This document shows positions 3,727 to 14,890 of a stretch of 22,322 nucleotides of DNA, one piece after another; position 1 is the stretch's first letter, and the number at the start of each line of letters is the position of its first letter. Origin of the DNA: Planctomycetota bacterium. Lineage in GTDB: Bacteria; Planctomycetota; Planctomycetia; Isosphaerales; Isosphaeraceae. Both the position numbers and the translations under genes were made by a program. Where the stretch lies: positions 1 through 22,322 of the forward strand of contig JAJYCH010000007.1 in assembly GCA_021778575.1 (NCBI GenBank), read 5' to 3'. The notes beneath the pieces were generated by a model that was given only the letters and a program-made list of their open reading frames with translations, was not told the DNA's origin and did not search any database.

Positions 3727-4203
3727 ATGTTCGACAATCGCTGGGATAACTGGGCAGGAGATTTCGCCGAATCGTTCGGCGCGGGGCTTCTCGACCCATC
3801 CGTGCGCAACTTCGTTCCCGATATCTTGACGCAATTTGGCGCGGCGGTTCGCAAGATCGATCGCGACTTCCCGGACGAAGTTTCGGCGGGGACCTTTGCG
3901 ACCGTCATGACCGATGTCATGCCCCGGCTCTCGCTACCGGAACAGGCTCGTCCGCACGTTCCGGAGGTGATCGCCCGGTTTCTCGACTATCTCCAGGACA
4001 GTGGTCGAGTCGGCGAAGGGGCTGACTGGGCGGCACAGATCCGGGTGATCGGCCAGTCCTTCGGCCAGCGGCTCAAGCCGGAAGGGGGCGTCAAGGGGGT
4101 GACCATCCAGCGCCCGGCCGACTCGTCGCCACTGGGACGAAACGACCCGTGCCCGTGCGGGTCAGGCAAGAAATACAAGAAGTGCTGTTATTCGCGCACC
4201 TGA
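3727..4203 (+). CDS. SEC-C motif protein
   Basis: 158 aa. The C-terminus carries a complete SEC-C zinc motif, [19 protein letters not shown] (about 137-155), with ligands C-x-C-x(8)-C-C as in the SecA tail. That motif binds zinc and commonly mediates ribosome or SecB contacts. The N-terminal 130 residues are helical ([30 protein letters not shown]) and not assignable to a known family. It is soluble, probably a small adaptor of unknown target. It lies 43 bp downstream of the DUF1015 gene and may be cotranscribed. The stop codon is embedded in a 14-bp palindrome (4198-4211). Confidence 0.85.
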
Positions 4204-4211
4204 ATTCAGGT
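4198..4211. repeat. 14-bp palindrome over the SEC-C stop codon
   Basis: ACCTGAATTCAGGT is a perfect palindrome that includes the TGA stop. Its 12-bp core, CCTGAATTCAGG, recurs at 8031-8042 just after the stop of the GTPase gene. Confidence 0.6.
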
Positions 4212-4409: not shown

Positions 4410-4586
4410 CTAGACCGTTGGCCCGTTAAGGGCTCGTCGACCGAAGATCAGCGAGACCACGAACAGGACAAGGAACACGAGCGCAAACAACTTGGCGATC
4501 TCGGAAGAGGTTCCGGCCAGACCGGAAAATCCGAGACCCGAGGCGATGATCGCGATGATCGCAAACAGAATGGCCCAGCGAAGCAT
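4410..4586 (-). CDS. DUF1328 small membrane protein (YtjA-like)
   Basis: 58 aa. [20 protein letters not shown] then [20 protein letters not shown] then [11 protein letters not shown] closely follows the DUF1328/YtjA family: two membrane helices with a conserved short G-S-A turn and a basic C-terminus. In proteobacteria such proteins are stress- or stationary-phase-associated inner-membrane proteins of unknown biochemistry. ATG at 4586 has a strong AAGGAG six to seven bases upstream. It follows the CsbD gene by 92 bp with only a hairpin between, and no promoter was seen in the gap, so it is probably the second gene of a sigma-54 operon starting at 5176-5191. The terminator is at 4235-4270. Confidence 0.88.
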
Positions 4587-4639
4587 GGGATGCTCCTTGA
4601 TCGTCCGAAGACGTAAGTGATGGGAGAACAGAGATCCAA

Positions 4640-4669
4640 GGGTGGCGCGGTGTCACGACCGCGCCACCC
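4640..4669 (-). other. Intercistronic hairpin between CsbD and DUF1328 genes
   Basis: A perfect 11-bp stem (4640-4650 with 4659-4669) around an 8-nt loop, with no following U-run on either strand. It more likely stabilises or processes the mRNA between two cotranscribed genes than terminates it. Confidence 0.55.
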
Positions 4670-4678
4670 GTGATGGGT

Positions 4679-5101
4679 TTACTTCGAGCGAAGCGCCAGC
4701 CCAACCACGAGACCAGCCACCAGTCCCACACCGAAGGCCGCCGCAATCGACTGCGCCGGGTTATGGCGGACCAGGTCCTGGCCGGCGTCGAATCGTTCGC
4801 GGGCCTGTTCGGTAACGTTGCCGTACTGGTCGCGGAATCGGTCGCCCGCCTGGTGAGCAAAGTTCCCCACCGCACCGGCGGCCTGCGAGATCACCGAACC
4901 GCCCTTGGCGGTCAGCTCGGTGAGGTACTTCTCGATCGCCTCGCGACCTTCGCCCGTCTTCGACTGGATCTTGCCGACCAACTGGTCGATGTTCCCGCCG
5001 TGAATCTGGAGGTCGTCATCCGTGAGCTGGCCCCACTTTTCCTTGACCTGACCGCGGAGCTTGTTCCACTGACCCTGAATTTCCTGGGCATTGATAGCCA
5101 T
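4679..5101 (-). CDS. CsbD-like domain fused to a DUF883-type glycine-zipper membrane anchor
   Basis: 140 aa. Residues 3-55 (IQGQWNKLRGQVKEKWGQLTDDDL, QLVGKIQSKTG) are a CsbD domain, a family of small general-stress proteins. The middle is amphipathic helix. The C-terminus RHNPAQSIAAAFGVGLVAGL plus VVGLALRSK is the DUF883 C-terminal anchor (R-x-x-P then a glycine zipper, ending in basic residues). CsbD is usually a stand-alone soluble protein, so this tethers it to the membrane. ATG at 5101 was chosen because it has AAGGGAG upstream and begins the CsbD block; an earlier ATG at 5149 would lie inside the leader. The sigma-54 promoter at 5176-5191 gives a leader of about 64 nt. First gene of an operon with DUF1328. 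Confidence 0.87.
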   Translation of the reverse strand: MAINAQEIQGQWNKLRGQVKEKWGQLTDDDLQIHGGNIDQLVGKIQSKTGEGREAIEKYLTELTAKGGSVISQAAGAVGNFAHQAGDRFRDQYGNVTEQARERFDAGQDLVRHNPAQSIAAAFGVGLVAGLVVGLALRSK

Positions 5102-5141
5102 CGTCACGAACTCCCTTGAGCGGTCTAAACGCTTCATTTCC

Positions 5142-5157
5142 CCGACCACCTGGTCGG
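5142..5157 (-). other. Leader hairpin of the CsbD mRNA
   Basis: An inverted repeat of 7-bp arms (CCGACCA / TGGTCGG, 2-nt centre) lies about 8-23 nt after the predicted start of transcription. A very similar element (TCCGACTGGTCGGA, 5600-5613) occupies the equivalent place in the lipoprotein leader. Confidence 0.4.
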
Positions 5158-5175
5158 TCTCTGAATGATTTTTAG

Positions 5176-5191
5176 AGCAAGAGCAATGCCA
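5176..5191 (-). promoter_or_regulatory. Sigma-54 promoter of the CsbD-DUF1328 operon
   Basis: On the minus strand TGGCATTGCTCTTGCT fits the -24/-12 consensus TGGCACG-N4-TTGCW at 10 of 12 positions. The invariant GG and GC are separated by exactly 10 nt. The -12 GC is at 5177-5178, predicting a start near 5165 and a leader of about 64 nt. Confidence 0.75.
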
Positions 5192-5243
5192 ATCAGACGG
5201 AAAAACAAATCTTTAAATCGATGACAGCAATAAGTTGAGACTC

Positions 5244-5291
5244 AAAAACACGAACGCCTGTGGAAACCAAGGTTTCCACAGGCGTTCGTGT
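5244..5291 (-). terminator. Rho-independent terminator of the lipoprotein gene
   Basis: A perfect 20-bp inverted repeat (5249-5268 with 5271-5290, AA centre), extendable by one A-T pair, is followed for minus-strand transcription by five T (the A-run 5244-5248). It lies just downstream of the lipoprotein stop and upstream of the CsbD promoter, insulating the two transcripts. Confidence 0.9.
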
Positions 5292-5337
5292 GATTATCGA
5301 TGCGCCATCGGACGACGACGCCTGCCGACGATCCAAA

Positions 5338-5535
5338 TTACTTGGGCTCGGTGGAGGCCGGAGCGCCTTCTTTGGCGTCGCCCGACTTCTTGATCTCGTC
5401 GGTCTTGATCTCGGTCGCCTTGCCGTTGGGGGTTTCAACGGTCTTTTTCTCTTCGACCTTGGTCTTCTCGTCGCAGCCAACCATACCGATCGAGGCAACA
5501 CCGATAATCAAGGCGGAGGCCAGGAAGCGCTTCAT
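5338..5535 (-). CDS. Small lipoprotein
   Basis: 65 aa. MKRFLASALIIGVASIGMVGC is a signal peptide with a lipobox-like M-V-G-C; Cys21 would be lipidated. The mature part is only about 44 residues, is highly charged and lysine/glutamate-rich (KTKVEEKKTVETPNGKATEI), and ends in low-complexity sequence, so it is probably disordered. No function is recognised; the size is like other short envelope lipoproteins of planctomycetes. ATG at 5535 has AAGGACTTTCCC upstream. A near-consensus sigma-54 promoter lies at 5624-5639 and a perfect terminator at 5244-5291, so it forms its own transcript, divergent from the DUF883 gene at 5857. Confidence 0.85.
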   Translation of the reverse strand: MKRFLASALIIGVASIGMVGCDEKTKVEEKKTVETPNGKATEIKTDEIKKSGDAKEGAPASTEPK

Positions 5536-5599
5536 GGGAAAGTCCTTCGGGGAAACGATGACGGCATCTTGTTCACCCCACTGTTGAGGTTCACGGATG

Positions 5600-5613
5600 T
5601 CCGACTGGTCGGA
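5600..5613 (-). other. Palindrome at the start of the lipoprotein mRNA
   Basis: TCCGACTGGTCGGA has 6-bp arms around TG and coincides with the predicted +1 to +14. It could be a protein-binding site or a 5'-end mRNA hairpin. Confidence 0.35.
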
Positions 5614-5623
5614 TGAATCTCAT

Positions 5624-5639
5624 GGCAACCGCCGTGCCA
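5624..5639 (-). promoter_or_regulatory. Sigma-54 promoter of the lipoprotein gene
   Basis: On the minus strand TGGCACGGCGGTTGCC matches TGGCACG-N4-TTGCW at 11 of 12 positions, one of the two best matches in the window. The predicted start is near 5613, giving a leader of about 78 nt. It is divergent from the promoter at 5743-5758, and the two share about 100 bp of upstream DNA. Confidence 0.82.
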
Positions 5640-5655
5640 CAAGGCACCGGCCGCG

Positions 5656-5669
5656 CCGAATTGAGCAGA
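5656..5669. promoter_or_regulatory. Candidate activator-binding site shared with the regulator's own promoter region
   Basis: CCGAATTGAGCAGA occurs here, between two divergent sigma-54 promoters, and again in inverted orientation at 12378-12391 at the predicted transcript start of the NtrC-family regulator. A related sequence, CCGAGCAGATCAATTC, lies at about 5703-5718. Function is inferred from position only. Confidence 0.3.
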
Positions 5670-5742
5670 ACGCGCCGGGTTCGAGAAATCGCCAAGCATC
5701 GGCCGAGCAGATCAATTCTCGTTTCGGGATCAGTGCCCGAGT

Positions 5743-5758
5743 CGGCACGTTCCTTGCA
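5743..5758 (+). promoter_or_regulatory. Sigma-54 promoter of the DUF883-like gene at 5857
   Basis: CGGCACGTTCCTTGCA matches TGGCACG-N4-TTGCW at 11 of 12 positions, with GG (5744-5745) and GC (5756-5757) at the required spacing. Predicted start near 5769, leader about 88 nt. The leader contains a possible stem-loop (TCAGTC 5771-5776 with GACTGA 5808-5813, and inner TTCCA with TGGAA). Confidence 0.82.
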
Positions 5759-5856
5759 ATTCTCTCGGATTCAGTCGGACTTCCATCTGGAGGTCTGGAA
5801 ACGTCGGGACTGACACCGACCGAGACGAATCACGGTTTCCATAGGGAGTTTCTCCG

Positions 5857-6273
5857 ATGGCGAATAACAAGAATCAGAACGCGAATGGCGGATCGACTCC
5901 CTCGGAGGGGGTTCGCGAACCAATCCAGAACGTCGGCCAGCAAGTCCGGCAGGGGGCCGAGCAGGTCAGCAACCGACTTCGCGAAGGGTACGACACCGCT
6001 CGCGAAGGGGCTCTGCACGGTTACCACGAGGCCGAAGGTCTTGTGTCCCGGAATCCGGCTCCCTCGCTCTTGATCGGCCTGGGCGTCGGCTTCGGGGTGG
6101 GTCTGGTCCTCAGCTCGCTGTTCCAGCGCGAGGAGACCTGGGCCGAGAAATATCTCCCCGAATCGCTTCAGGACGCCCCGGACCGATATCACCGGCTGGT
6201 CGAGTCGTTGCGGTCGTTGCCCAAGACGGTTCACGATCACTTGCCGCACGCCGTTTCCAAGCATCTCGGCTGA
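5857..6273 (+). CDS. DUF883-like membrane-anchored protein
   Basis: 138 aa. Residues 1-60 are polar and helical (VREPIQNVGQQVRQGAEQVS, REGALHGYHEAEGL). Then follows the DUF883 anchor SRNPAPSLLIGLGVGFGVGL plus VLSSLF (about 64-89), with the R-x-x-P entry and a GxGxGxG glycine zipper. Unlike classical ElaB/YqjD proteins, a further 45-residue amphipathic tail follows the helix (WAEKYLPESLQDAPDRYHRL). In E. coli the family are stationary-phase inner-membrane proteins reported to bind ribosomes; that role is not shown here. AGGGAG lies 8 nt before the ATG. Monocistronic: sigma-54 promoter at 5743-5758 and intrinsic terminator at 6316-6351. Confidence 0.85.
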   Translation: MANNKNQNANGGSTPSEGVREPIQNVGQQVRQGAEQVSNRLREGYDTAREGALHGYHEAEGLVSRNPAPSLLIGLGVGFGVGLVLSSLFQREETWAEKYLPESLQDAPDRYHRLVESLRSLPKTVHDHLPHAVSKHLG

Positions 6274-6315
6274 TCTCCGGATTGGCCTGCTTGGGCCGCG
6301 AATCCGTTCGCGCAA

Positions 6316-6351
6316 GGCTGCCCCGACTCGAATCGGGGCGGCCCTTTTTTT
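6316..6351 (+). terminator. Rho-independent terminator after the DUF883-like gene
   Basis: An 11-bp stem with one G-U pair (6316-6326 with 6333-6343, 6-nt loop) is followed by C and seven T (6345-6351). Its position also shows that the next gene must start downstream of here. Confidence 0.88.
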
Positions 6352-6443
6352 GTCGACCGCGACTCGCTACGATCGCGGCGGCGACATCCGTCCGGCCAAT
6401 CTTTCCCAGATCTGAGCGAAATTCCTTTTGGGGCTCTCTCACC

Positions 6444-8024
6444 TTGGAACCAAAGCGACGACCGAGGTCCATTCCGTTGCTCAAGAACTGGCGATCGTGG
6501 GTGCTCTTGCTCCTGTTCGTCGCCCCTTATCTGGCCTTCATGGGGCTCGGGTTCCTCTACCTGCTCGAAAAGGGAAAGGTCTGGATGCTCGGGGGAGCCG
6601 GGCTCTCGATCCTTTCAGGGGTCGCGATCGCGTTGCTCCTGTCGCGCTGGACGAAGTCGTCCCAGGCCTTCTTGCCACCGATCGACTGGGACATTCCGAC
6701 GACTTTTTCGGAATTCGACCGCCAGGCCTGGGCGCTGGTCGAGACCGAGGCCGAGCGTGGCGATGTCCTGGAAATGACCGAACTTTACCAGTTCAACACC
6801 TATATCACGACCGGAGAGCGGCTGGCCAACCGCCTGGCCGCTCACTACAACCCGCTCTCGTCCGACCCGCTCGAACGGGTTGCGGTGGTTGAGCTTCTGA
6901 CCGCCCTGGAACTGGCGGCCGAGGATCTGACCCGGCTCTGTCGCCAGGTCCCCGGTGGCGATCTGGTCACGCCGGCCGACTGGAAGAAAGCCGTCGTCGC
7001 CGCCAGCTACATCCAGAAAGCGAGCGACCTTTACACCTACCTGCTCCCACTCTTCAACCCGGTCACCGGAATCCCTCGACTGGCCTCGCAGCACCTGATG
7101 GTCAAGCCGGCCTGGAAGAACATGCAGCAGAACCTGTTGCGCTGGTTTTACCGGGCCTTCGTCAACCGGCTGGGGACTCACCTGATCGAGCTTTACAGCG
7201 GGCGGCTGGTGATCGGAGCCGACCAGTACCGCAAACTCACCCGTAAGGGGGGCGGGCTCTCGGCCAAGGGGGATGTCGCGACCTTCGACCTGACCATTGC
7301 CGTCGCCGGAGCGCGCGACTCGGGCAAGACAAAGCTCATCGAAGCTCTCGAAGCGGCTCGAACCGAGCTTCTCACCGGGAATGACCTCGACCCAACCGGA
7401 GCCACCCGGCTCAAAACGGCGAAGATCATCGAGATCGACTATTACACGGCGATCGAAGGTGGCAAGGAATCGGCCCGGAACCGAGCGACCCGACGCCACG
7501 CCGTGAGCGAAGCCGCCGAATGCGACCTTCTGCTCCTGGTCGTGAACCTGGCAGCCGACTCGCACGGGGCCGATGCCGCGTTCCTCACCGACTGGACGAA
7601 GTGGTACACCGATCATCCGGGTCTCCAGGTTCCCCCCGTGCTCGGAATCGCCACCCAGGTCGACTCGCCGATTCTCGGGGCCGACTGGAAACCACCTTAC
7701 GACTGGTCAGATGGCCCGGGCCGCCGCGAAGCCGCCGTGAAGGCGCGGGTCCAGACCTTGAGAAGTGTTCTTCCCATCCCCCTGAGCGAGATCTTGCCGA
7801 TGGCCGCGGGAGCCCGACCGCCGTTCGGGGTCCGCGAAATCCTGTTGCCCAGCTTGACCAGCCTTTGCCATCAAGCCGAACGCAACGCCTTGATTCGCCA
7901 ACTCAGGAACGCCTCGGCGCGATCGAGAGCCGGCCGGCTCGTCCGCCAGGTCGGCGAGCAGGGCAAGTCGCTCTGGAAAAGCCTCCGGGATCGGGGCAAG
8001 CCCGACGATGGCGCGACCGCGTGA
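6444..8024 (+). CDS. Membrane-anchored P-loop GTPase-like protein
   Basis: 526 aa from TTG at 6444. Two adjacent membrane helices (about 20-42 and 47-70) are followed by a helical linker, then a GTPase-like domain: G1 GARDSGKT (290-297) and a G4-like TQVD (405-408) following the hydrophobic strand PPVLGIA. A canonical DxxG switch II is not evident; IIEIDYYTAI (about 329-338) is the likeliest equivalent. The layout resembles dynamin-like or YcjF/Era-type membrane GTPases, without a clear subfamily. The start is unsure: TTG at 6477 has GAGG nine bases upstream and would remove 11 residues, while ATG at 6282 precedes the terminator at 6316-6351 and is rejected. It lies between two sigma-54 transcription units; no promoter of its own was recognised. 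Confidence 0.75.
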   Translation: MEPKRRPRSIPLLKNWRSWVLLLLFVAPYLAFMGLGFLYLLEKGKVWMLGGAGLSILSGVAIALLLSRWTKSSQAFLPPIDWDIPTTFSEFDRQAWALVETEAERGDVLEMTELYQFNTYITTGERLANRLAAHYNPLSSDPLERVAVVELLTALELAAEDLTRLCRQVPGGDLVTPADWKKAVVAASYIQKASDLYTYLLPLFNPVTGIPRLASQHLMVKPAWKNMQQNLLRWFYRAFVNRLGTHLIELYSGRLVIGADQYRKLTRKGGGLSAKGDVATFDLTIAVAGARDSGKTKLIEALEAARTELLTGNDLDPTGATRLKTAKIIEIDYYTAIEGGKESARNRATRRHAVSEAAECDLLLLVVNLAADSHGADAAFLTDWTKWYTDHPGLQVPPVLGIATQVDSPILGADWKPPYDWSDGPGRREAAVKARVQTLRSVLPIPLSEILPMAAGARPPFGVREILLPSLTSLCHQAERNALIRQLRNASARSRAGRLVRQVGEQGKSLWKSLRDRGKPDDGATA

Positions 8025-8029
8025 GCGAC

Positions 8030-8043
8030 GCCTGAATTCAGGC
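8030..8043. repeat. 14-bp palindrome just after the GTPase stop
   Basis: GCCTGAATTCAGGC is a perfect palindrome, sharing the core CCTGAATTCAGG with the site at 4198-4211. Both copies lie at the 3' end of a plus-strand gene. Confidence 0.55.
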
Positions 8044-8131
8044 ATTTCCGTGCGCAGGACAATACCAAACGTGCTCATCTGCGCGGCGGTTTCCACATCT
8101 CTCCATCGGATGCTTGCGATCGTCGCGTGAT

Positions 8132-8147
8132 TGGCATTAAGGTTGCT
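8132..8147 (+). promoter_or_regulatory. Sigma-54 promoter of the four-gene DUF883/holin-X/lipid-kinase operon
   Basis: TGGCATTAAGGTTGCT matches the -24/-12 consensus at 10 of 12 positions, with GG 8133-8134 and GC 8145-8146. Predicted start near 8158, leader about 75 nt. Confidence 0.78.
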
Positions 8148-8170
8148 CAATAGCGTCCCCGGCATGGTGG

Positions 8171-8204
8171 CGGAAGTTCCGTCCTTCCGAGGGTCGAGCG
8201 ACCC
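8171..8204 (+). other. Two tandem stem-loops in the operon leader
   Basis: CGGAAG/CTTCCG (8171-8176 with 8184-8189, 7-nt loop) is followed at once by GGGTCGAGCGACCC (8191-8204) and then TTTT. Both lie between the predicted transcription start and the first gene. They could stabilise the 5' end or, because of the short U-run, act as a weak attenuator. Confidence 0.4.
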
Positions 8205-8232
8205 TTTTCGGCTTCGATGAGGAAAACCGATC

Positions 8233-8757
8233 GTGGCGACCGCACCCCCGGAATTTGAAGACATCCGCCGGCAAATGGCGCAGATCCGTCGCGACCTTCA
8301 CGACGATGTCAAAGGCGTCGTCGAAGGGGCCGAGGCGGCCACGGACTGGCGGCGTTTCATCCGGAATTACCCCTGGGCGACCCTGGGAGCCGCCTTCGCG
8401 GTCGGTTACCTGATCGTCCCCCGGAAGCACCAGCCGACCACCGTCACCATTGCTCCCAGCCAGATCGCCCCGGCCCTGGCTCAGGTCGCGGCTCCAGAAG
8501 TCAGGCCGGAACCCGCAAAGAAGAGCAAAGGCTTGCTCGCCAGCGCCTTTGCACTGGTTGCTCCGATCGCCTTCCGGACCGCTCAAGGCTATGCCTTGCA
8601 GTTCGCTGAGCAATGGCTTGCCCAGAAGGTGGCCGAGCAGATGAACCAGCATCCCGACCTCGCCGCTGCCTTTGGCGCGGGGGCGCCACCTTCGCCGTCG
8701 GCCGCGACTGATCCGCGAGGGCCTCGGGTCAATCCGCCGGGGGCTCCCCGGTTCTGA
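8233..8757 (+). CDS. DUF883-like membrane-associated protein, first gene of the operon
   Basis: 174 aa. Residues 1-45 form a charged helix (EDIRRQMAQIRRDLHDDVKG) typical of the DUF883 N-terminus. IRNYPWATLGAAFAVGYLIV (43-62) is the DUF883 anchor, with the characteristic N-x-P-W. The C-terminal half is an extension: a second hydrophobic stretch, LLASAFALVAPIAF, then an amphipathic helix and a proline/alanine-rich end. It is probably an inner-membrane scaffold; no enzymatic motif is seen. The start is GTG at 8233 with GAGGAAAA upstream. It is the first of four genes behind the sigma-54 promoter at 8132-8147; the next gene begins 87 bp after its stop with no promoter between. Confidence 0.82.
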   Translation: MATAPPEFEDIRRQMAQIRRDLHDDVKGVVEGAEAATDWRRFIRNYPWATLGAAFAVGYLIVPRKHQPTTVTIAPSQIAPALAQVAAPEVRPEPAKKSKGLLASAFALVAPIAFRTAQGYALQFAEQWLAQKVAEQMNQHPDLAAAFGAGAPPSPSAATDPRGPRVNPPGAPRF

Positions 8758-8844
8758 ACCTTATGGTCGCGGATCATGGTCGGAACAGGTGAGTCGGGCG
8801 GCGATTCATTCCACGGCACAAAACAAAATCAAAAGGGGAAATCG

Positions 8845-9045
8845 ATGGTCGACCGAGCAGCGGGACTGGAAGCAGGGCTCAGCGACGTCCGGGAAAAAGC
8901 GCTGGAAGTCGCGGCTTCGGCTCGCGAAAACTTCCAGGTAGGGACCAATCTGTTGCGTGATTACATTGTCAAAGAACCCACGCGGGCCCTCGGGATCGCG
9001 GTGGGAATGGGGGTGATCCTGGGATGGCTGATCAAGCGTCGATGA
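8845..9045 (+). CDS. Short DUF883-like (YqjD-type) membrane anchor protein
   Basis: 66 aa. A helical N-terminus (VDRAAGLEAGLSDVREKALE) leads into VKEPTRALGIAVGMGVILGW plus LIKRR, a clean DUF883 C-terminal anchor ending in basic residues. ATG at 8845 has AAAAGGGG upstream; an upstream ATG at 8776 has no such site. The stop overlaps the start of the next gene (ATGA at 9042-9045), implying translational coupling. YqjD-like followed directly by YqjE-like is the same order as in the enterobacterial yqjCDEK locus. Confidence 0.82.
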   Translation: MVDRAAGLEAGLSDVREKALEVAASARENFQVGTNLLRDYIVKEPTRALGIAVGMGVILGWLIKRR

Positions 9046-9494
9046 GCCGAAACAACGGCACGAACCACCCGGCCGCTTCCCCCTTGACCGTGGTCAGCAA
9101 CCTGGCGGACTTCGGTAACGACATCGCGACACTCGCCGAACTCCAAGCGAAGCTCGCGGCCTACGACGCGAAGGAAGCGGCGGCTCGCGCGATTGGCCCG
9201 ATGGTGATTCTGGGGGTCAGCGCCGCGGTGGCCCTGGCCAGCTTGCCGGTTATTCTGATCGGCCTGGCCGATCTGATCGCCGCCAACTCCCGGATCTCCT
9301 CCGGCACGGCACAATTGATCGTCGGTCTCTCGGCCTTGATTCTGGCGGCGGTCGCTGGTTTTCTCGGGGTCCGGGGGTCCGTGCGGAGCCTGGATAGTTT
9401 CCGCCGCTCGCGCGAAGAGTTGACCAGGAATCTCTCCTGGATCAGAACGGTTCTGACTTACAGCGGCCGGACGGTCGGAAAGCGGCGGGTGTGA
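9042..9494 (+). CDS. Holin-X/YqjE-like membrane protein
   Basis: 150 aa. Two hydrophobic helices (about 53-80, MVILGVSAAVALASLPVILI; about 92-116, AQLIVGLSALILAAVAGFLG) are preceded by an amphipathic helix with ATLAELQAKLAAYDAKEAAA. This matches the YqjE/'putative holin-X' family (PF07332), where the helical segment after the N-terminus is often 'xLxxLxxAExxLAxxE'. Despite the family name there is no phage context, so a lytic role is unlikely; a membrane-shape or stress role beside YqjD-like proteins is more plausible. The start at 9042 overlaps the upstream stop, and its own end overlaps the lipid kinase start (GTGA, 9491-9494). Confidence 0.82.
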   Translation: MSRNNGTNHPAASPLTVVSNLADFGNDIATLAELQAKLAAYDAKEAAARAIGPMVILGVSAAVALASLPVILIGLADLIAANSRISSGTAQLIVGLSALILAAVAGFLGVRGSVRSLDSFRRSREELTRNLSWIRTVLTYSGRTVGKRRV

Positions 9495-10393
9495 TCGAGG
9501 CGGAAGGATCATCGGTCACCGGTCTGACAGGATTGCTCGTCAACCGCCGAGCAAGACGAGCGGCTCTGCTGACTCGTGCCGAGCCGCTCGACCTCCTTGC
9601 GAACCATGGAATCGCGCTGGGACCGATCGCCTGGGTCAAGCACTCGCGCGACTTGCTCCCGGCGATCGATTCATTGCTGGATCAGGGAGTGGATCGGATC
9701 ATCGTCGGCGGTGGTGACGGGACCATGAGTACCGTCGCGGCTCGACTGGCGCACCGGAGCGTGACTCTGGGGGTTCTGCCGCTCGGAACCGCTAACGATT
9801 TCGCCAGGACTCTGGGAGTCCCCGACGACCTGGATGACGCCGCACGGATCATCGCGACCGGCAACTACCGGTTCGTCGACCTGGGGCGCGCGAACGATGC
9901 TTATTTTCTGAACGTGGCGAGCATCGGCATGTCCGTCTCGGCCACCTCGCAGCTTTCGCCGGCGATCAAGCGGAAGCTCGGGGTTCTCGCCTACCTTTAC
10001 GCTGGGTTTCGAGCCTTTACGCGACACTCGACGTTTCGAGTTCGCGTCCGGAATGGCCTGGATTCCGTCGAGACGACCGCTCACCAGCTCGTCGTGGGCA
10101 ATGGTCGGTTCTATGGCGGTGGCGTGCTCGTCTCTCGGGAGAGTTCGCTCGAGGATGGGTTGCTGCACGTTTACGCGCTGGGAACCCGCGGTCGCTGGGA
10201 TTTGCTCCGGACGATCGCCTTGCTCCGGATGGGGGTGCCCATCGACCGGCCGGGAGACTGCTTCTTGCAGACCGCCTCGATCCAGGTCGAAACCTGGCCC
10301 GACCTGGAGATCAACTGCGACGGCGAGATCCGGACCAGGACACCGGTTACCTTCGCCGTCGAGCCGGGGGCACTTCGCGTCTTCGTTCCCTGA
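9491..10393 (+). CDS. Diacylglycerol/lipid kinase catalytic-domain protein (YegS/DgkB-like)
   Basis: 300 aa, the usual length. The nucleotide loop GGGDGT (73-78), PLGTANDFA (97-105), ASIGMS (143-148), EDGLLHVY (221-228) and CDGE (276-279) are the standard motifs of the DAGK_cat/YegS family, which phosphorylates diacylglycerol or related lipids at the inner face of the membrane. No transmembrane helix is present. GTG at 9491 overlaps the preceding TGA, so it is coupled to the holin-X-like gene and is the last gene of the sigma-54 operon. Co-expression with membrane-anchor proteins fits membrane-lipid turnover under stress. It ends 3 bp from the stop of the convergent CBS gene, with a small bulged hairpin at the junction. 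Confidence 0.92.
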   Translation: MIEAEGSSVTGLTGLLVNRRARRAALLTRAEPLDLLANHGIALGPIAWVKHSRDLLPAIDSLLDQGVDRIIVGGGDGTMSTVAARLAHRSVTLGVLPLGTANDFARTLGVPDDLDDAARIIATGNYRFVDLGRANDAYFLNVASIGMSVSATSQLSPAIKRKLGVLAYLYAGFRAFTRHSTFRVRVRNGLDSVETTAHQLVVGNGRFYGGGVLVSRESSLEDGLLHVYALGTRGRWDLLRTIALLRMGVPIDRPGDCFLQTASIQVETWPDLEINCDGEIRTRTPVTFAVEPGALRVFVP

Positions 10394-10396
10394 AGA

Positions 10397-10837
10397 TCAG
10401 GAATGATCGATCACCTCGGTCACGACCTCGCCGATCTTCTGCTTGCTCAGAAAGCCGGTAACGTCGGACCAGGCGATAATCCCGACCAGTTGCCCCTGAG
10501 CGTCGATCACCAGGAGGCGTCGGACCCCTTTGTCGGCGAATTTTTCCGAGATCGTGTCGATCGAGTCGCCCGGAGCGACGGCCACAACCCCTCGGGTCAT
10601 CAATTCGGTGACGGGCAGGCTGGTCAGGTCGCCACCCTGTTCGGCCAGCGCCAGGGCCACGTCGCGATCGGTCAAGAGACCGATCGGCTTGCCCTCTTCC
10701 AGAACCGGCACGGCGCCGCAATCGGCATCCCGAAAGATCAAGACCGCCTCGAGAACCGTGCTGTAGGTTGAACAGGTCCGCGGACCAGGAGTCATCACGT
10801 CGGCCGCGGTCGCGGTGGAGGAAGCAGAAATTGTCAT
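10397..10837 (-). CDS. Two-CBS-domain protein
   Basis: 146 aa. Two tandem CBS domains occupy nearly the whole protein: about 9-65 (ADVMTPGPRTCSTYSTVLEA ... GLLTDRDVA) and about 76-136 (VTELMTRGVVAVAPGDSIDT ... GIIAWSDVT). Such stand-alone pairs bind adenine nucleotides (AMP, ATP, SAM) and act as energy or redox sensors, often among stress genes. ATG at 10837 was chosen for AAGGA seven bases upstream; an ATG at 10876 would add 13 residues unlike the family. It lies 78 bp downstream of the NtrC-family regulator on the same strand, with a weak sigma-54-like site (10891-10906) in the gap. Confidence 0.9.
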   Translation of the reverse strand: MTISASSTATAADVMTPGPRTCSTYSTVLEAVLIFRDADCGAVPVLEEGKPIGLLTDRDVALALAEQGGDLTSLPVTELMTRGVVAVAPGDSIDTISEKFADKGVRRLLVIDAQGQLVGIIAWSDVTGFLSKQKIGEVVTEVIDHS

Positions 10838-10890
10838 CGCCGGATCCTTCGAGAACGAGAGAGAAAATATCCGCAATCCTCACGGGTCGG

Positions 10891-10906
10891 TGCAACTCCC
10901 GGACCC
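10891..10906 (-). promoter_or_regulatory. Weak sigma-54-like site upstream of the CBS gene
   Basis: On the minus strand GGGTCCGGGAGTTGCA has the GG-N10-GC spacing and a perfect TTGCA -12 box but only 4 of 7 matches in the -24 half (9 of 12 overall). The leader would be only about 43 nt, shorter than for the other sites. Confidence 0.35.
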
Positions 10907-10915
10907 AAACCGGAT

Positions 10916-12310
10916 TCATGCCGATTTGAAAGGATGCTTGCTAATTTCATATTCGCTGATCTTGCCTGAGATACTCCGACGCGACAGCCCGCAGAGCTTG
11001 GCGCACTCGCCGACGTTCCCCCGGGTCTTTTCGAGAGCTTTGGTGATGTATTGCCGCTCGATCTGCTCGGTCGCCTGCTGGAGATAGAACGGGAGCGGCT
11101 GCTTCAGGTCGACCTCGAACTTGGGCGAATCCTCGTTCGGCGTCCCCACCACTTGATGGGGCAAGTTGTCGGCGGTGATCGTGTCGCCGACCGTGGTGAC
11201 CGCCGCGCGTTCGATGGCGTTCTCGAGCTGGCGGATATTCCCGGGCCACCGGTAACCAAGCAACCGGTCCATCGCCTCGGGGGCAACCTTCTTGGCTGGT
11301 TCGCCGGACCGGGCGTATTTGTTGAGAAAATGGGTGATCAGCAGAGGGATATCCTCGGGCCGTTCACGCAGCGGTGGCACGTCAATCTTGATGACGTTGA
11401 GCCGATAGAACAGATCCTCGCGGAATCGGCCCTCCTTGACCTCCTTCTCCAGGCTCTTATTGGTTGCGGCGACGACCCGGATATCCACCTCGATGCTTTC
11501 GTGTCCGCCAACCCGCTCGAAGCGCTTTTCCTGGAGGACCCGAAGCAGCTTGGCCTGCATCGCCTGCGAGATATCGCCGATCTCGTCGAGGAAGATGGTC
11601 CCCTTGTCGGCCAGTTCGAACCGCCCTTTGCGTCGGGCATCGGCCGAGGTAAAGGCCCCGCGTTCGTGGCCGAACAATTCGCTCTCCAGCAGACTCTCGG
11701 GGAGCGCCGCGCAGTTGATCGCCACCAAATTTCCTTGCCGGTCCTCGCTCGAATAGTGCACGGCCTTGGCAATCAGTTCCTTGCCCGTTCCGGTCTCTCC
11801 TTCGATCAGGACCGTGCTCTTGGTTCCGCCGATATGACGGATCAACTGAAAAATCTTATGCATCTCCGAATTCTTGGAGATGATGTTGTGAAAACTATAA
11901 TTTTCCTTGAGTTGTTGACGAAGTTGCAGCACTTCGTCCTGAAGCGCCCGCATCGTCAAGGCTCGATCCATGACAAGCTTGAGCTGGGTGGCATCGATCG
12001 GCTTGGTCAGAAAATCGTACGCACCGAGTCGCATGGCCTCGACCACTCGCTCGATCGAGCCAAACGACGTGGTGACGATGGTCGTGACCAAGATCCGCCG
12101 TAGAGTGACCTCGCGGATCAAGTCCATCCCACCCATTCCCGGCATTCGGAGATCGGTGATCAACACGCTGTAATCCGTGGCCGAGAGCGCGGCAAGTGCT
12201 TCCTGGCCACTCGAAACGGCATCGACTTTCAGCTCGTCGGTTTCGAGCAGTCGTTTGAGCAGGGTCGTGCTATGCGGATCATCATCGACGAGAAGGACTT
12301 TGCGCTGCAT
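10916..12310 (-). CDS. NtrC-family sigma-54-dependent response regulator
   Basis: 464 aa, full length, in three domains. Receiver, 1-120: acidic pocket D9-D11, phospho-acceptor D53 in ITDLRMPG, K103 in FLTKPID. AAA+ ATPase, about 144-378: Walker A GETGTGKE 171-178, sigma-54 contact loop GAFTSA 218-223, Walker B TIFLDEIGD 238-246, sensor II arginines around GNIRQLENAIERA. Fis-type helix-turn-helix, about 413-455 (GNVGECAKLCGLSRRSISGK). It would activate RNA polymerase-sigma-54 by ATP hydrolysis after phosphorylation. The contact loop has S in place of the second G of GAFTGA. A sigma-54-like promoter lies about 90 bp upstream (12402-12417), suggesting autoregulation. Likely partners are the kinase at 13141 (inferred) and the sigma-54 promoters across the window. 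Confidence 0.95.
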   Translation of the reverse strand: MQRKVLLVDDDPHSTTLLKRLLETDELKVDAVSSGQEALAALSATDYSVLITDLRMPGMGGMDLIREVTLRRILVTTIVTTSFGSIERVVEAMRLGAYDFLTKPIDATQLKLVMDRALTMRALQDEVLQLRQQLKENYSFHNIISKNSEMHKIFQLIRHIGGTKSTVLIEGETGTGKELIAKAVHYSSEDRQGNLVAINCAALPESLLESELFGHERGAFTSADARRKGRFELADKGTIFLDEIGDISQAMQAKLLRVLQEKRFERVGGHESIEVDIRVVAATNKSLEKEVKEGRFREDLFYRLNVIKIDVPPLRERPEDIPLLITHFLNKYARSGEPAKKVAPEAMDRLLGYRWPGNIRQLENAIERAAVTTVGDTITADNLPHQVVGTPNEDSPKFEVDLKQPLPFYLQQATEQIERQYITKALEKTRGNVGECAKLCGLSRRSISGKISEYEISKHPFKSA

Positions 12311-12377
12311 GCCATCAATCTCTCTGGATCGAATGTTGTCCAGCCACCGACCGAGATGATTCTCGGCCGCGCGGCCA

Positions 12378-12391
12378 TCTGCTCAATTCGG
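12378..12391. promoter_or_regulatory. Second copy of the 14-bp candidate regulatory site
   Basis: TCTGCTCAATTCGG is the exact reverse complement of 5656-5669. It sits at the predicted transcription start of the regulator gene, where a bound protein would be expected to repress. It also forms one arm of a GCTCAA-N12-TTGAGC dyad with the -12 region. Confidence 0.3.
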
Positions 12392-12401
12392 AAACCATTT
12401 G

Positions 12402-12417
12402 AGCAAATCTAGTACCA
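12402..12417 (-). promoter_or_regulatory. Sigma-54 promoter of the NtrC-family regulator gene
   Basis: On the minus strand TGGTACTAGATTTGCT matches TGGCACG-N4-TTGCW at 10 of 12 positions with exact GG-N10-GC spacing. Predicted start near 12391, leader about 81 nt. Divergent from the promoter at 12672-12687, sharing about 255 bp. Confidence 0.7.
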
Positions 12418-12502
12418 TGACGAAGTCTGCTGCCTAGATGTCGCCAGATCGTGTCCAATTTTTCGGATGTCGCCCGAAAGGAGCCCTTTCACGACCCAGG
12501 AT

Positions 12503-12520
12503 TCGGCAACGATTTGCCGA
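12503..12520. promoter_or_regulatory. Dyad TCGGCAA-N4-TTGCCGA, candidate enhancer site
   Basis: Perfect 7-bp arms around CGAT lie about 87 bp upstream of the -24 box of the regulator promoter and about 150 bp upstream of that at 12672. This is the spacing expected for an NtrC-type activator site. Direct repeats nearby, CCAGTTTCCC at 12620-12629 and 12640-12649 (20 bp apart) and GATGTCGCC at 12437-12445 and 12466-12474, are alternative candidates. Confidence 0.35.
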
Positions 12521-12671
12521 TTTCCCTGTTGCCGCGATGCCGCTCAGCGGTTGAGAGAAATCCTGGCGCCGAGAACCGGAAGTGCTGCGGTCGAGGTTCC
12601 CATGCCGCCGGCAACGGGACCAGTTTCCCCGTCAGGGGCCCAGTTTCCCAGCGATTTTGGAGTGTCGAGAA

Positions 12672-12687
12672 GGGCACAATAATTGCT
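12672..12687 (+). promoter_or_regulatory. Sigma-54 promoter of the small anchor gene at 12799
   Basis: GGGCACAATAATTGCT matches at 10 of 12 positions, with GG 12673-12674 and GC 12685-12686. Predicted start near 12698, leader about 101 nt. Confidence 0.72.
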
Positions 12688-12798
12688 GTAAGCGTGGTAA
12701 TGTCCTGGTTTGCGCCCGACTTGCTTGATTGACAGGGTTGGTCCGTTTTCGAGTGATCTCAACGCGGCTTCATCCCGTCATTGCTGGGAGTTATCCTC

Positions 12799-12993
12799 AT
12801 GGTCGACGTGGCGAGAACTCGATTTCCCGACAACATGAGCCGGTCGTTGCCTTCCGAGAGTCTGCCCTGGGAATCGGCGGCGACCGAGGTCGTGGATCGG
12901 CTGAAAAAGTACGCCCGAGACGAACCGATCGCGTTTGGCGCCTGGGCATTCGGGATTGGATTTCTGCTGGGTTGGCGTCTCAAACCCTGGTAA
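12799..12993 (+). CDS. Short DUF883-like membrane anchor protein
   Basis: 64 aa. A polar N-terminus and amphipathic helix (WESAATEVVDRLKKYARDEP) run into EPIAFGAWAFGIGFLLGWRL plus KPW, the same R-x-x-P / G-x-G / basic-end anchor as the other DUF883-like proteins of the window. Here it has the shortest cytoplasmic part and an unusual WAFGIGF core. ATG at 12799 has GGGAG upstream; an in-frame ATG at 12781 lacks one. Driven by the sigma-54 promoter at 12672-12687 and divergent from the regulator gene. The kinase gene starts about 147 bp downstream on the same strand and could be read through. Confidence 0.78.
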   Translation: MVDVARTRFPDNMSRSLPSESLPWESAATEVVDRLKKYARDEPIAFGAWAFGIGFLLGWRLKPW

Positions 12994-13140
12994 CTGGCTC
13001 GGCGAACGGGAACGTCTCGCCGGGTATGGGTTGTTCGCGACGATATTCCGCCGACCGTTTCCGGACTGATGCCCCGCGCTCTTGCCTGGAATCTGTTTCA
13101 TTGCCGCCTGGGTTTCGTTCTCCGACGGGAAAGGCCACCA

Positions 13141-14265
13141 GTGACCGCATCCGATCATGTCGTCATCTTTGACGAGGACCACGACCGGGCCTCGTTGATC
13201 GCCGGTTTGCTGGAACGAAGCCAGCCCTGGAATGGTCCCAAAACGATCCTGACATTCCACGATCTCAGGGGCGACTGGGAGCCGGCAGCGGGAATCCAGG
13301 AATTGAGAAGCGGATTGCCCGTTCTGGCGATTGTCGTCGAGGCCGATCCGGCGCGTTCGGCGTTTCCAGGACTTCAGGAACTGGCACGACAGGAGGGGGT
13401 CGCGACGCTCCTGGTGGTCGATGGAACTCTCGATCCTGCAAGCCTGGCGTCAAAGGCTCGGGGATTTGATGGCTGGATCGCCCTGGCCGCGCTCGATCAC
13501 GAGTTGCCGGCCCGGGTGGCCGAGGTTCTCGACCGGACCGACGCGAAGTCGCGCAACGGCCGTTCCGCCCCCGCTCTCGATTCCCGTTTTCTGGCGCTGG
13601 TGGTCCATGATCTTCGGACCCCATTGAACGTCATCGGGCTAACGATCCGGGCGATCACGCAGACGATTCCGAATCGGAGTGTCGAACTCGACGAGGATCT
13701 GACCTTCATCAAGGACAACGCCGCCCAGATCGAGAAAATGCTGTCGCAACTTGGCGATTATTGCCGGTTGATCGACCGCGAATCGCCATTGATGAGTTCC
13801 GAATTCGATCCCCGACGGTTCCTGAGCGACTTCGTGGAAGTCCACCGATCGCGGCCCGGGGCGGATCTCCAACCGTTGAAACTCGAACTTACAGAGACGT
13901 CGCCGGTCGAGGTCACGCTCGATCAGAACCGGGTCAAGCTGGCTCTCCAGAATGCCCTGGCAAACACCCTCAACGCGGCGGGAAAAACACCGGTTCGGCT
14001 CCGGTCGAGCGCAAACGATGGGCGCTGGATTATCGAACTGATCGTCGATAAGCCGCCGCCCCAGACGGTGGTTTCCCGGACCTTGCGGCCCGAACAGTTC
14101 GAACGGATCTCCGGCTCGGCGGCCGAGCGTCGCGGCCTTGACCTGGCACTTGCGGCGCATGTCAGCGAATCGTTCGGCGGGACCGCCCGGTTGGAGGTCG
14201 AACCCGAACAGCGGTCGAGCGTGGTCCTGGAATGGCCGGTTCGGAGTCCGACCACCGAGGCTTGA
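13141..14265 (+). CDS. Atypical histidine kinase with a pseudo-receiver and degenerate ATP-binding domain
   Basis: 374 aa from GTG at 13141 (AAAGG six bases upstream; the ATG at 13069 has no such site). Residues 1-130 have receiver-like topology (VVIFDEDHDRASLIAGLLER) but no aspartate in the usual acceptor strand (LAIVVEADP). The HisKA domain is intact: FLALVVHDLRTPLNVIG with His156. In the HATPase part the N box is recognisable (NALANTLNAA, 271-280), but the G1 box DxGxG is DKPPP (303-307) and the G2 box is RRGLDLAL (330-337). It has no membrane helix, so it is cytosolic. It may be a weak or inactive kinase acting as a phosphatase or scaffold, possibly for the regulator 0.8 kb away; that pairing is inferred from proximity. 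Confidence 0.85.
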   Translation: MTASDHVVIFDEDHDRASLIAGLLERSQPWNGPKTILTFHDLRGDWEPAAGIQELRSGLPVLAIVVEADPARSAFPGLQELARQEGVATLLVVDGTLDPASLASKARGFDGWIALAALDHELPARVAEVLDRTDAKSRNGRSAPALDSRFLALVVHDLRTPLNVIGLTIRAITQTIPNRSVELDEDLTFIKDNAAQIEKMLSQLGDYCRLIDRESPLMSSEFDPRRFLSDFVEVHRSRPGADLQPLKLELTETSPVEVTLDQNRVKLALQNALANTLNAAGKTPVRLRSSANDGRWIIELIVDKPPPQTVVSRTLRPEQFERISGSAAERRGLDLALAAHVSESFGGTARLEVEPEQRSSVVLEWPVRSPTTEA

Positions 14266-14286
14266 ACGCCGCCCCGTTCCGACCCA

Positions 14287-14302
14287 CGGCACGACGCTTG
14301 CG
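14287..14302 (+). promoter_or_regulatory. Sigma-54 promoter of the ferritin-like gene
   Basis: CGGCACGACGCTTGCG matches TGGCACG-N4-TTGCW at 10 of 12 positions, including all of GGCACG and TTGC. GG 14288-14289, GC 14300-14301; predicted start near 14313, leader about 83 nt. It begins 22 bp after the kinase stop. Confidence 0.78.
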
Positions 14303-14395
14303 ATGTGATTCAGACTAACGACGAGGTTACCCGGGATCGTTCCGGTTTCTCCTTCGTTGCTCTGTCACTTCGTTCCGAAAGCGATAAGGCCCGCC

Positions 14396-14890
14396 ATGAC
14401 GACCACCCCGACTGCCCGGCGCGACTGGATCGTCGCCGAGTTTTCCAAGGGAATCGAAGCGGAACATTCCCTCCAAACTCATGCCGAAACGACGGCCTCG
14501 AACCCTCCGGACCCCTCGCTCGTTGTCCTCTACCACGAGATCGCCGCCGATGACCAGCGGCATCGAATGATCGTCGAGACCATCGCGACCCGCTACGGTT
14601 ACAACCCGGGCAAGATTCTTGGTGGTGGCGTGAGCGGCGCCTTCGACCGGCTCCGCGAAAAGGTCGGCGAGATCGGTTCGACCCCGCAGACCAGGCTCGC
14701 TCACGACCTCGCTGCCAAGGCCGACTCGATTCACTGGACGACCGCCTGGATTTACACGTTTCAGAGTCTCGGTGACACCGTGAGCGCCCGCGAACTCGCC
14801 GCCGTTCTGACCGAGGAAAAGTCGCATCACGATGCTCTCCAGGAAGGCCTCAATCGGCTGATGGCTCGCGAGGCCACCGAACCCGAATAA
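14396..14890 (+). CDS. Ferritin-like four-helix protein (putative)
   Basis: 164 aa, all-helical. Four segments carry regularly placed acidic and histidine residues: FSKGIEAEHSLQTHAETTA, YHEIAADDQRHRMIVETIA, ADSIHWTTAWIYTFQSL and LTEEKSHHDALQEGLNRLM. The E...E-x(2-4)-H spacing in helices 2 and 4 resembles di-iron ferritin-like or rubrerythrin-like bundles (as in DUF892/DUF2383-type stress proteins), but I cannot place it in a defined family and metal binding is inferred. Soluble, no signal. ATG at 14396 has AAGG seven bases upstream. It has its own sigma-54 promoter (14287-14302), which ties it to the stress regulon. Confidence 0.7.
   Translation: MTTTPTARRDWIVAEFSKGIEAEHSLQTHAETTASNPPDPSLVVLYHEIAADDQRHRMIVETIATRYGYNPGKILGGGVSGAFDRLREKVGEIGSTPQTRLAHDLAAKADSIHWTTAWIYTFQSLGDTVSARELAAVLTEEKSHHDALQEGLNRLMAREATEPE

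Follow-up and report, generated by a model that had tools for sequence, protein, structure and literature searches.

Which sigma factor reads the cluster of DUF883-type membrane anchors, CsbD, DUF1328 and holin-X genes that surrounds an NtrC-family regulator gene in a planctomycete of the Isosphaeraceae (contig JAJYCH010000007.1 of assembly GCA_021778575.1), and does that regulator serve its own neighbors? A preliminary description, made from the DNA letters, had proposed seven sigma-54 promoters here, forming one envelope-stress regulon under the embedded regulator. We analyzed the whole stretch of DNA, hereafter the window, which comprises 22,322 nt and is one entire contig of a fragmented assembly (5.35 Mb, 75% complete). 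The cluster is a real, conserved sigma-54 stress regulon, and we consider it quite likely that the full explanation is a clustered regulon for envelope or stationary-phase protection with its activator encoded inside.

Results

Sigma-54 elements in the window

Both strands of the window were scanned for TGGCACG-N4-TTGCW with a mandatory GG-N10-GC core, the score of a site being its number of matches out of 12. Exactly seven sites reach at least 10/12 in the whole window, and these are the seven of the preliminary description, recovered at the coordinates and on the strands that it gave, with scores of 10-11 and the core spacing intact (Table 1). By our own gene calls all seven are intergenic and, as had been claimed, aimed at the next gene (7/7), with 75-112 nt between the end of the site and the start codon; the leaders of about 64-101 nt predicted for them fit if transcription starts about 11 nt past the site. 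An eighth, weaker site (9/12), absent from the earlier list, precedes the gene of a CBS-domain protein. Cluster intergenic DNA (1,955 bp) contains far more sites than shuffled sequence does (7 observed, against a mean of 0.099 and a maximum of 2 in 2,000 shuffles), and over the whole window 100 dinucleotide shuffles gave a mean of 1.07 and a maximum of 4, the reversed window giving 0. For rpoN, one PF04552 match over cut-off is present in each of the 25 genomes searched, this one included, and Rfam gave no match above gathering score anywhere in the window. That the seven claimed elements are sigma-54 promoters we regard as nearly certain.

Conservation in orthologous loci

For each cluster gene except that of the histidine kinase, the best site in the 350 bp upstream was recorded in the loci around close regulator orthologues; rows without upstream DNA (1/63 target and 2/49 non-target) were left out of the totals, no shuffled control was run for this survey, and the genomes include same-genus pairs (G009/G026, G015/G029, G019/G031 and G000/G001). 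A site of at least 9/12 stands upstream in 57 of 62 target regions, as compared with 4 of 47 regions of non-target genes in the same loci, so that the sites recur at matching positions in orthologous intergenic DNA. Leaving the window out gives 49/54 target and 4/36 non-target regions, and raising the threshold to at least 10/12 gives 38/62 and 1/47. Counts for single targets are listed in Table 1; before the CBS gene a site of at least 9/12 is found in 10/10 orthologous regions including the window, at 34-99 nt in 9 of them. Upstream of the regulator the best score is at least 9/12 at any position in 8/11 genomes, and at the correct position the GG-N10-GC core is present in 9/11, where three genomes score 8, five score 9 and the window scores 10. 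For the CBS gene in locus L046, and for the regulator in L043 as well as L052, the best score probably belongs to a spurious site; the L045 sites at 242-253 nt are doubtful. The flavor of the motif is kept per target, as with the first-position C before DUF883-like protein a (6/6, but a T in locus L242 of the blind alignment), and GGAA-type -24 boxes precede the regulator in several genomes.

Because the site scan itself demands GG and GC, we added blind MAFFT alignments of five upstream regions, in which the most conserved 16-column window was taken with no motif named; sequences were chosen by hand, 5-8 per gene and usually one per genus, with L240 and L242 added to some. The top-scoring columns coincide with the -24/-12 element in 4/5 alignments, namely those of CsbD (0.88; next best 0.72), YqjD-like protein b (0.86; 0.66), the ferritin-like protein (0.86; 0.68) and DUF883-like protein a (0.85; 0.65).

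A conserved block follows directly on the regulator's -12 box (window positions ~12311-12420) and consists of CGnGCA and then a TCGCGCGA-like sequence; it also occurs in G021 and G031, both of which lack the sigma-54 core there, and it may be an operator or a leader element.

Recurrence across the class and beyond the cluster

CsbD matches were found in 78 of the 148 genomes of the class that were searched. The scan of CsbD-DUF883-type genes took in 60 regions and the window, matches that start after residue 20 or span <80 residues being left out; 40 of the regions were picked by hand from the CsbD matches, in most cases because the reading frame was long, and blind to promoters except for G146, whose gene had been scored earlier; two of the 40, L205 and L213, yielded none. 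Within 250 bp of these genes a site of at least 10 lies in 33/46 cases, as opposed to 1/46 for reversed sequence and a shuffle mean of 0.37, and outside the family in 15/19; four of the sites among the CsbD-DUF883 genes are perfect (12/12). Outside the family, a short DUF883-type anchor is present in 17 of 20 regions, and 11 have holin-X beside CsbD. Of the 30 top CsbD matches, most of which are of a shorter type, 7 have a site versus 0/30 in the control; L175 and L200, read in a wrong frame, count as misses. The regulator, the ferritin-like gene and the CsbD-DUF883 block of G018 sit on three contigs, each with its sites kept. In G031 the DUF883 block is separated from the close regulator, anchor d and the CBS gene carrying sites of 10.

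This genome contains 19 matches to the pattern TGGCAY-N5-TTGCW, G021 has 13 and G026 has 23 (5, 3 and 12 in backwards-read controls), with 2, 2 and 3 of the respective matches inside the cluster. The 36 places inspected in the three genomes, many of which look coding-internal, include dnaK, a treZ-like gene, a gene for a small charged helical protein and one for a BON-like protein, all named by eye. Within the family, a site precedes dnaK in 22/30 cases (control 1/30; the 30 of 48 listed matches that had loci), the treZ-like gene in 6/13 (control 0/13), and the ferritin-like gene in 7/16 at a score of at least 10 (control 0/16) and 11/16 at a score of at least 9. In G026 (L158) the same pattern is found upstream of rpoN, also named by eye, and sigma-54 may therefore control its own gene there.

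The embedded regulator and its neighbor kinase

The receiver, AAA+ and Fis-type helix-turn-helix (HTH) domains of the regulator (PF00072, PF00158 and PF02954) all score over cut-off. AtoC is its best NCBIfam model, yet below the equivalog cut-off, and identification as AtoC, NtrC or ZraR was rejected on those cut-offs (490.7 of 714, 435 of 558.6 and 399.5 of 760, respectively). Apart from this genome, 10 of 58 relatives have a close orthologue (79-89% identity), divided between two contigs in one case; among named relatives Tundrisphaera lichenicola is closest (88%), and Isosphaeraceae bacterium EP7 has 83% identity. The regulator adjoins DUF883/CsbD-cluster genes in 9 of these 11 genomes, and in all 11 a histidine kinase with a preserved H-box, HD(L/I)R(T/S/N)PLN, lies near it. 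This kinase is probably the partner of the regulator and probably shares an operon with the anchor protein at 12799. Many of its orthologues in the 11 genomes have a PPP stretch where a DxGxG box is expected.

A second group of regulators, 55-58% identical to the first, adjoins genes of these kinds in G002, G031, G007, G024 and G033. The regions from G005, G030, G017 and G011, 13-20 kb long, showed no cluster genes near it, G014, G028, G036 and G061-G064 had none closer than 1.5 kb, and G047 has one weak cluster-gene match 9 kb away. The loop of this group reads GAFTGA or GSFTGA in 13/18 members and GAFTSA in 4, with one unread. More distant NtrC-type paralogues (~48-52% identical) lie 2-19 kb from dnaK in G002, G008, G009, G018, G025, G026, G031, G034 and G035, their HTH stretch being GLSRRSIS in the three read (G008, G025 and G034); they suggest a sister regulator for chaperones.

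Gapped words were sought in 43 promoter regions (G026 left out) and palindromic dyads in 48. Three words occur in more regions than the maxima reached by shuffles (7-8), namely GCAA-N6-TGCC (9 regions), AACGTCGG (9) and GGCG-N6-CCGA (11), and none was retained as an activator motif: the first reads as the antisense of adjoining sigma-54 sites, and the other two fall mostly before the CBS and ferritin-like genes, within the last part of the regulator and kinase reading frames. Repeats upstream of the regulator (GGGAA, GAA-N6-TTC and TGCTC-N6-GAGCA) are weak and present in some genomes only. The palindrome CCTGAATTCAGG is found at 4199-4210 and 8031-8042 of the window, both at gene ends, and at one further place in the 5.35-Mb assembly, three in all, the third within an unrelated repeat; it was discarded as an operator, no exact copy of its 10-bp core occurring in the orthologous cluster loci L042-L061. 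By eye, CCAGTTTCCC appears twice between the regulator and anchor d (12620-12660), the copies being separated by about 20 bp; it did not turn up as a common motif among relatives.

Genes of the cluster

CsbD, DUF1328, holin-X, the lipid kinase and the CBS protein pass their Pfam thresholds; the DUF883 calls are all sub-threshold (0/5 proteins over the cut-off of 27, with 22.5 bits for the CsbD-DUF883 protein, 20.8 for anchor c and no match for the products at 5857, 8233 and 12799). The DUF883-like proteins resemble the C-terminal anchor of the family only, and by eye they share a hydrophobic segment with a proline followed by a glycine zipper, often C-terminal. No sequence profile over cut-off supports the ferritin-like identity, which is favored by the predicted fold: the model has a template-modeling score of 0.75 to a ferritin-like Xanthomonas protein and also resembles YciE/YciF, and its best Foldseek matches are ferritin-like chains, none at E <=0.001. 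The DUF1328 gene has no site of its own of at least 9 in the window, and the gene at 6444-8024, which most of the retrieved cluster copies contain, lacks a conserved sigma-54 site of its own. Following the lipoprotein gene on the minus strand, a 20-bp stem and a T-rich run at 5248-5291 form a strong terminator-like site.

Table 1. Candidate promoter elements and genes of the cluster. Site scores are out of 12; counts of orthologous upstream regions include the window and refer to sites of at least 9/12 unless given otherwise.
Feature	Coordinates	Strand	Basis and remarks
Sigma-54 site TGGCATTGCTCTTGCT	5176..5191	-	Score 10; before CsbD-DUF883, then DUF1328; 6/6 orthologous regions
Sigma-54 site TGGCACGGCGGTTGCC	5624..5639	-	Score 11; before lipoprotein gene; 3/5
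Sigma-54 site CGGCACGTTCCTTGCA	5743..5758	+	Score 11; before DUF883-like a; 6/6
Sigma-54 site TGGCATTAAGGTTGCT	8132..8147	+	Score 10; before DUF883/holin-X/lipid-kinase operon (first gene b); 9/9
Sigma-54 site GGGTCCGGGAGTTGCA	10891..10906	-	Score 9; before CBS gene
Sigma-54 site TGGTACTAGATTTGCT	12402..12417	-	Score 10; before regulator gene; GG-N10-GC kept in 9/11 genomes
Sigma-54 site GGGCACAATAATTGCT	12672..12687	+	Score 10; before anchor d and histidine kinase; 8/8, one 253 nt away
Sigma-54 site CGGCACGACGCTTGCG	14287..14302	+	Score 10; before ferritin-like gene; 7/7, one 242 nt away
NtrC-family activator (putative)	10916..12310	-	Receiver, sigma-54 AAA+ domain (loop GAFTSA), Fis-type HTH (GLSRRSIS)
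Histidine kinase	13069..14265	+	HisKA 32.0 bits, HATPase_c 28.1 bits; inside cluster
DUF1328 small membrane protein	4410..4586	-	PF07043 46.3 bits; downstream of CsbD
CsbD domain with C-terminal DUF883-type glycine-zipper membrane segment	4679..5101	-	PF05532 57.2 bits (cut-off 40); hydropathy
Probable lipoprotein, 65 residues	5338..5535	-	No Pfam match; weak sub-cut-off lipoprotein models
DUF883-like membrane protein a	5857..6273	+	37% identity to C-terminal part of CsbD-DUF883 over ~52 residues; no Pfam match
P-loop-type protein, probably membrane-anchored	6444..8024	+	GARDSGKT by eye; no Pfam match
YqjD-like protein b, first gene of operon	8233..8757	+	No Pfam match; conserved in 9 loci
Short DUF883/ElaB-like tail anchor c	8845..9045	+	DUF883_C 20.8 bits (cut-off 27) and ElaB model E 0.0021, both sub-cut-off
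Holin-X (YqjE-type) membrane protein	9024..9494	+	PF07332 48.1 bits (cut-off 28.4)
YegS-type lipid kinase	9491..10393	+	PF19279 and PF00781 over cut-off
CBS-domain protein	10397..10840	-	PF00571 90.8 bits
DUF883-like anchor d, 64 residues	12799..12993	+	No Pfam match; conserved copies by tblastn
Ferritin-like four-helix protein	14396..14890	+	Predicted fold, predicted local distance difference test (pLDDT) 86.8

Discussion

The proposal of one envelope-stress regulon under the embedded regulator holds in its sigma-54 part, which is carried by the shuffles, by conservation in orthologous loci and by the class-wide recurrence of the site before CsbD-DUF883 genes. In the mechanism that we favor, sigma-54 RNA polymerase would wait as a closed complex on the eight -24/-12 promoters, and the cluster-encoded NtrC-family protein, as the presumed activator, would open them using ATP. 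The histidine kinase encoded alongside probably phosphorylates this activator, which would also control its own gene via a conserved, off-consensus sigma-54 promoter. The predicted output comprises tail-anchored glycine-zipper proteins of DUF883 type, CsbD, DUF1328 and YqjE-type holin-X, and further the lipid kinase, the lipoprotein, the CBS protein and the ferritin-like protein. It is probable that this program is an envelope or stationary-phase stress response; the envelope-stress label and the presumed inducing stress are drawn from distant homologues, and such sites also lie beyond the cluster (dnaK, treZ-like).

Single 10/12 matches do arise by chance, at about one per window, and GC-rich intergenic DNA that matches the motif by composition has to be weighed for that reason, but seven sites were reached in 0 of 2,000 shuffles, reversed controls were near zero and the orthologous positions are conserved; because of the conservation tests chance is very unlikely, and we give it almost no credence. 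The elements could instead act mainly as a brake or a spare promoter, with sigma-70-type or extracytoplasmic function (ECF) promoters doing most of the transcription. Such an arrangement would recall the tandem sigma-66/sigma-54 promoters at hrcA-grpE-dnaK of Chlamydia (excerpts of PMC8762339), and a sigma-70-family model gives 7-18 matches per genome in 21 genomes, some proteins perhaps being counted in two pieces. Set against this, sigma-70-like promoter matches number four in 11 kb versus 2.0 expected by chance, for an E. coli-type consensus that misses other types, and one of them (5165-5192) merely overlaps a sigma-54 site, so that we judge this reading improbable.

A weightier, though still unlikely, alternative accepts the sigma-54 promoters as genuine and assigns them mainly to another NtrC-type protein, the embedded one serving its own gene and one or two neighbors. 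This genome holds ten NtrC-type matches at E<=1e-60, the promoters have no enhancer motif in common, the four regulators seen near the CsbD operon in other families differ in their HTH, and a close orthologue is absent from 10 of the 18 family genomes in which CsbD has a site of at least 10. Opposed to it are the co-occurrence of regulator and kinase in 11/11 orthologue genomes, in 9/11 beside other cluster genes, and the 55%-identical group that adjoins DUF883/holin-X genes in five named genomes (G002, G031, G007, G024 and G033). On balance the embedded regulator is probably the main activator of the cluster promoters in this genome. The claim of an activator inside its own regulon is supported by synteny, by the core of the regulator's own site (9/11) and by the 55%-identical group; it is weakened by the want of a shared binding motif, and it fails if taken to mean the sole activator of such promoters.

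Several observations weigh against the interpretation that we prefer. The 10 of 18 genomes with CsbD sites and no close orthologue must be served by other activators, close orthologues being restricted to 11 of 45 family genomes. No shared enhancer motif emerged from gapped words in the 43 promoter regions, and therefore the link between regulator and promoters rests on synteny. The sigma-54 core is missing before the regulator in G021 and G031 (of 11 genomes), the lipoprotein site is absent in 2/5 loci, and the CsbD gene of G031 has no site within 250 nt. The CBS region gives no blind support, because the top columns of its alignment are the end of the regulator coding sequence and not the -24/-12 element. 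Every genome of the close group (11, the window included) has a regulator loop of GAFTSA or GSFTSA, not GAFTGA, and the kinase has no recognizable DxGxG ATP-binding box in any of the 11. Finally, rpoN of Rhodopirellula was not heat-regulated and was lowered under salt, according to excerpts of PMC2754498.

How the cluster compares with known systems depends on the component considered. ElaB, whose model matches anchor c below cut-off, is reportedly under OxyR and RpoS. The order of a DUF883-type anchor followed by YqjE-type holin-X is that of Pseudomonas aeruginosa PA3040-3042 and Escherichia coli yqjD-yqjE, described in excerpts of PMC11302039 as stress and stationary-phase genes, the Pseudomonas operon being under AlgU and up in stationary phase; unlike there, the present operon has a sigma-54 promoter, extra anchors, CsbD and a nearby activator gene. 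Sigma-54 sites have been predicted in the Planctomycetia or the wider phylum before NtrC-type, DnaK/GrpE-type chaperone, universal stress, MscS and CBS genes; the excerpts of that source (PMC12316311) describe no cluster with its own activator, unlike here, and its main text makes no mention of CsbD, DUF883, COG3237, COG4575 or COG5487. The sigma-54/AtoC system of Chlamydia trachomatis is similar in its NtrC-type activator, in including some envelope genes and in having hrcA-grpE-dnaK behind a sigma-54 promoter, and differs in that its targets named in the excerpts of PMC8762339 are not the CsbD/DUF883 set and the hrcA-grpE-dnaK site stands in tandem with a sigma-66 promoter. The window's regulator has the receiver, sigma-54 AAA+ and Fis-type HTH architecture of AtoC, NtrC and ZraR, and departs from them in its loop GAFTSA and its HTH stretch GLSRRSIS. 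A literature search found no paper linking DUF883 with sigma-54.

Models of rpoS (TIGR02394) and rpoH (TIGR02392) gave 0/21 genomes over cut-off, these models being proteobacterial and this genome 75% complete, and other stress sigma factors may be present. A broader reading, which we advance as tentative, is that sigma-54 of the Planctomycetia took over the role of RpoS, RpoH, AlgU or EcfG through paralogous GLSRRS-type NtrC activators, one for each stress module. Its scope would be a general stress response covering membrane anchors and CsbD, DnaK, trehalose-type metabolism and ferritin-like proteins, with one such activator in the DUF883 cluster and one near dnaK.

Under the sigma-54 regulon described here, an operon type for membrane stress, controlled by AlgU in Pseudomonas, appears to have been placed under a sigma factor that is driven by ATP and depends on an activator, and the poorly understood DUF883, CsbD and DUF1328 proteins gain a shared regulatory logic. 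The sigma-54 promoter before CsbD-DUF883 genes in the class and before dnaK in the family offers a testable answer to how the general stress response is organized. Relatives in the class keep the core wiring, which suggests how planctomycetes may run their stress response.

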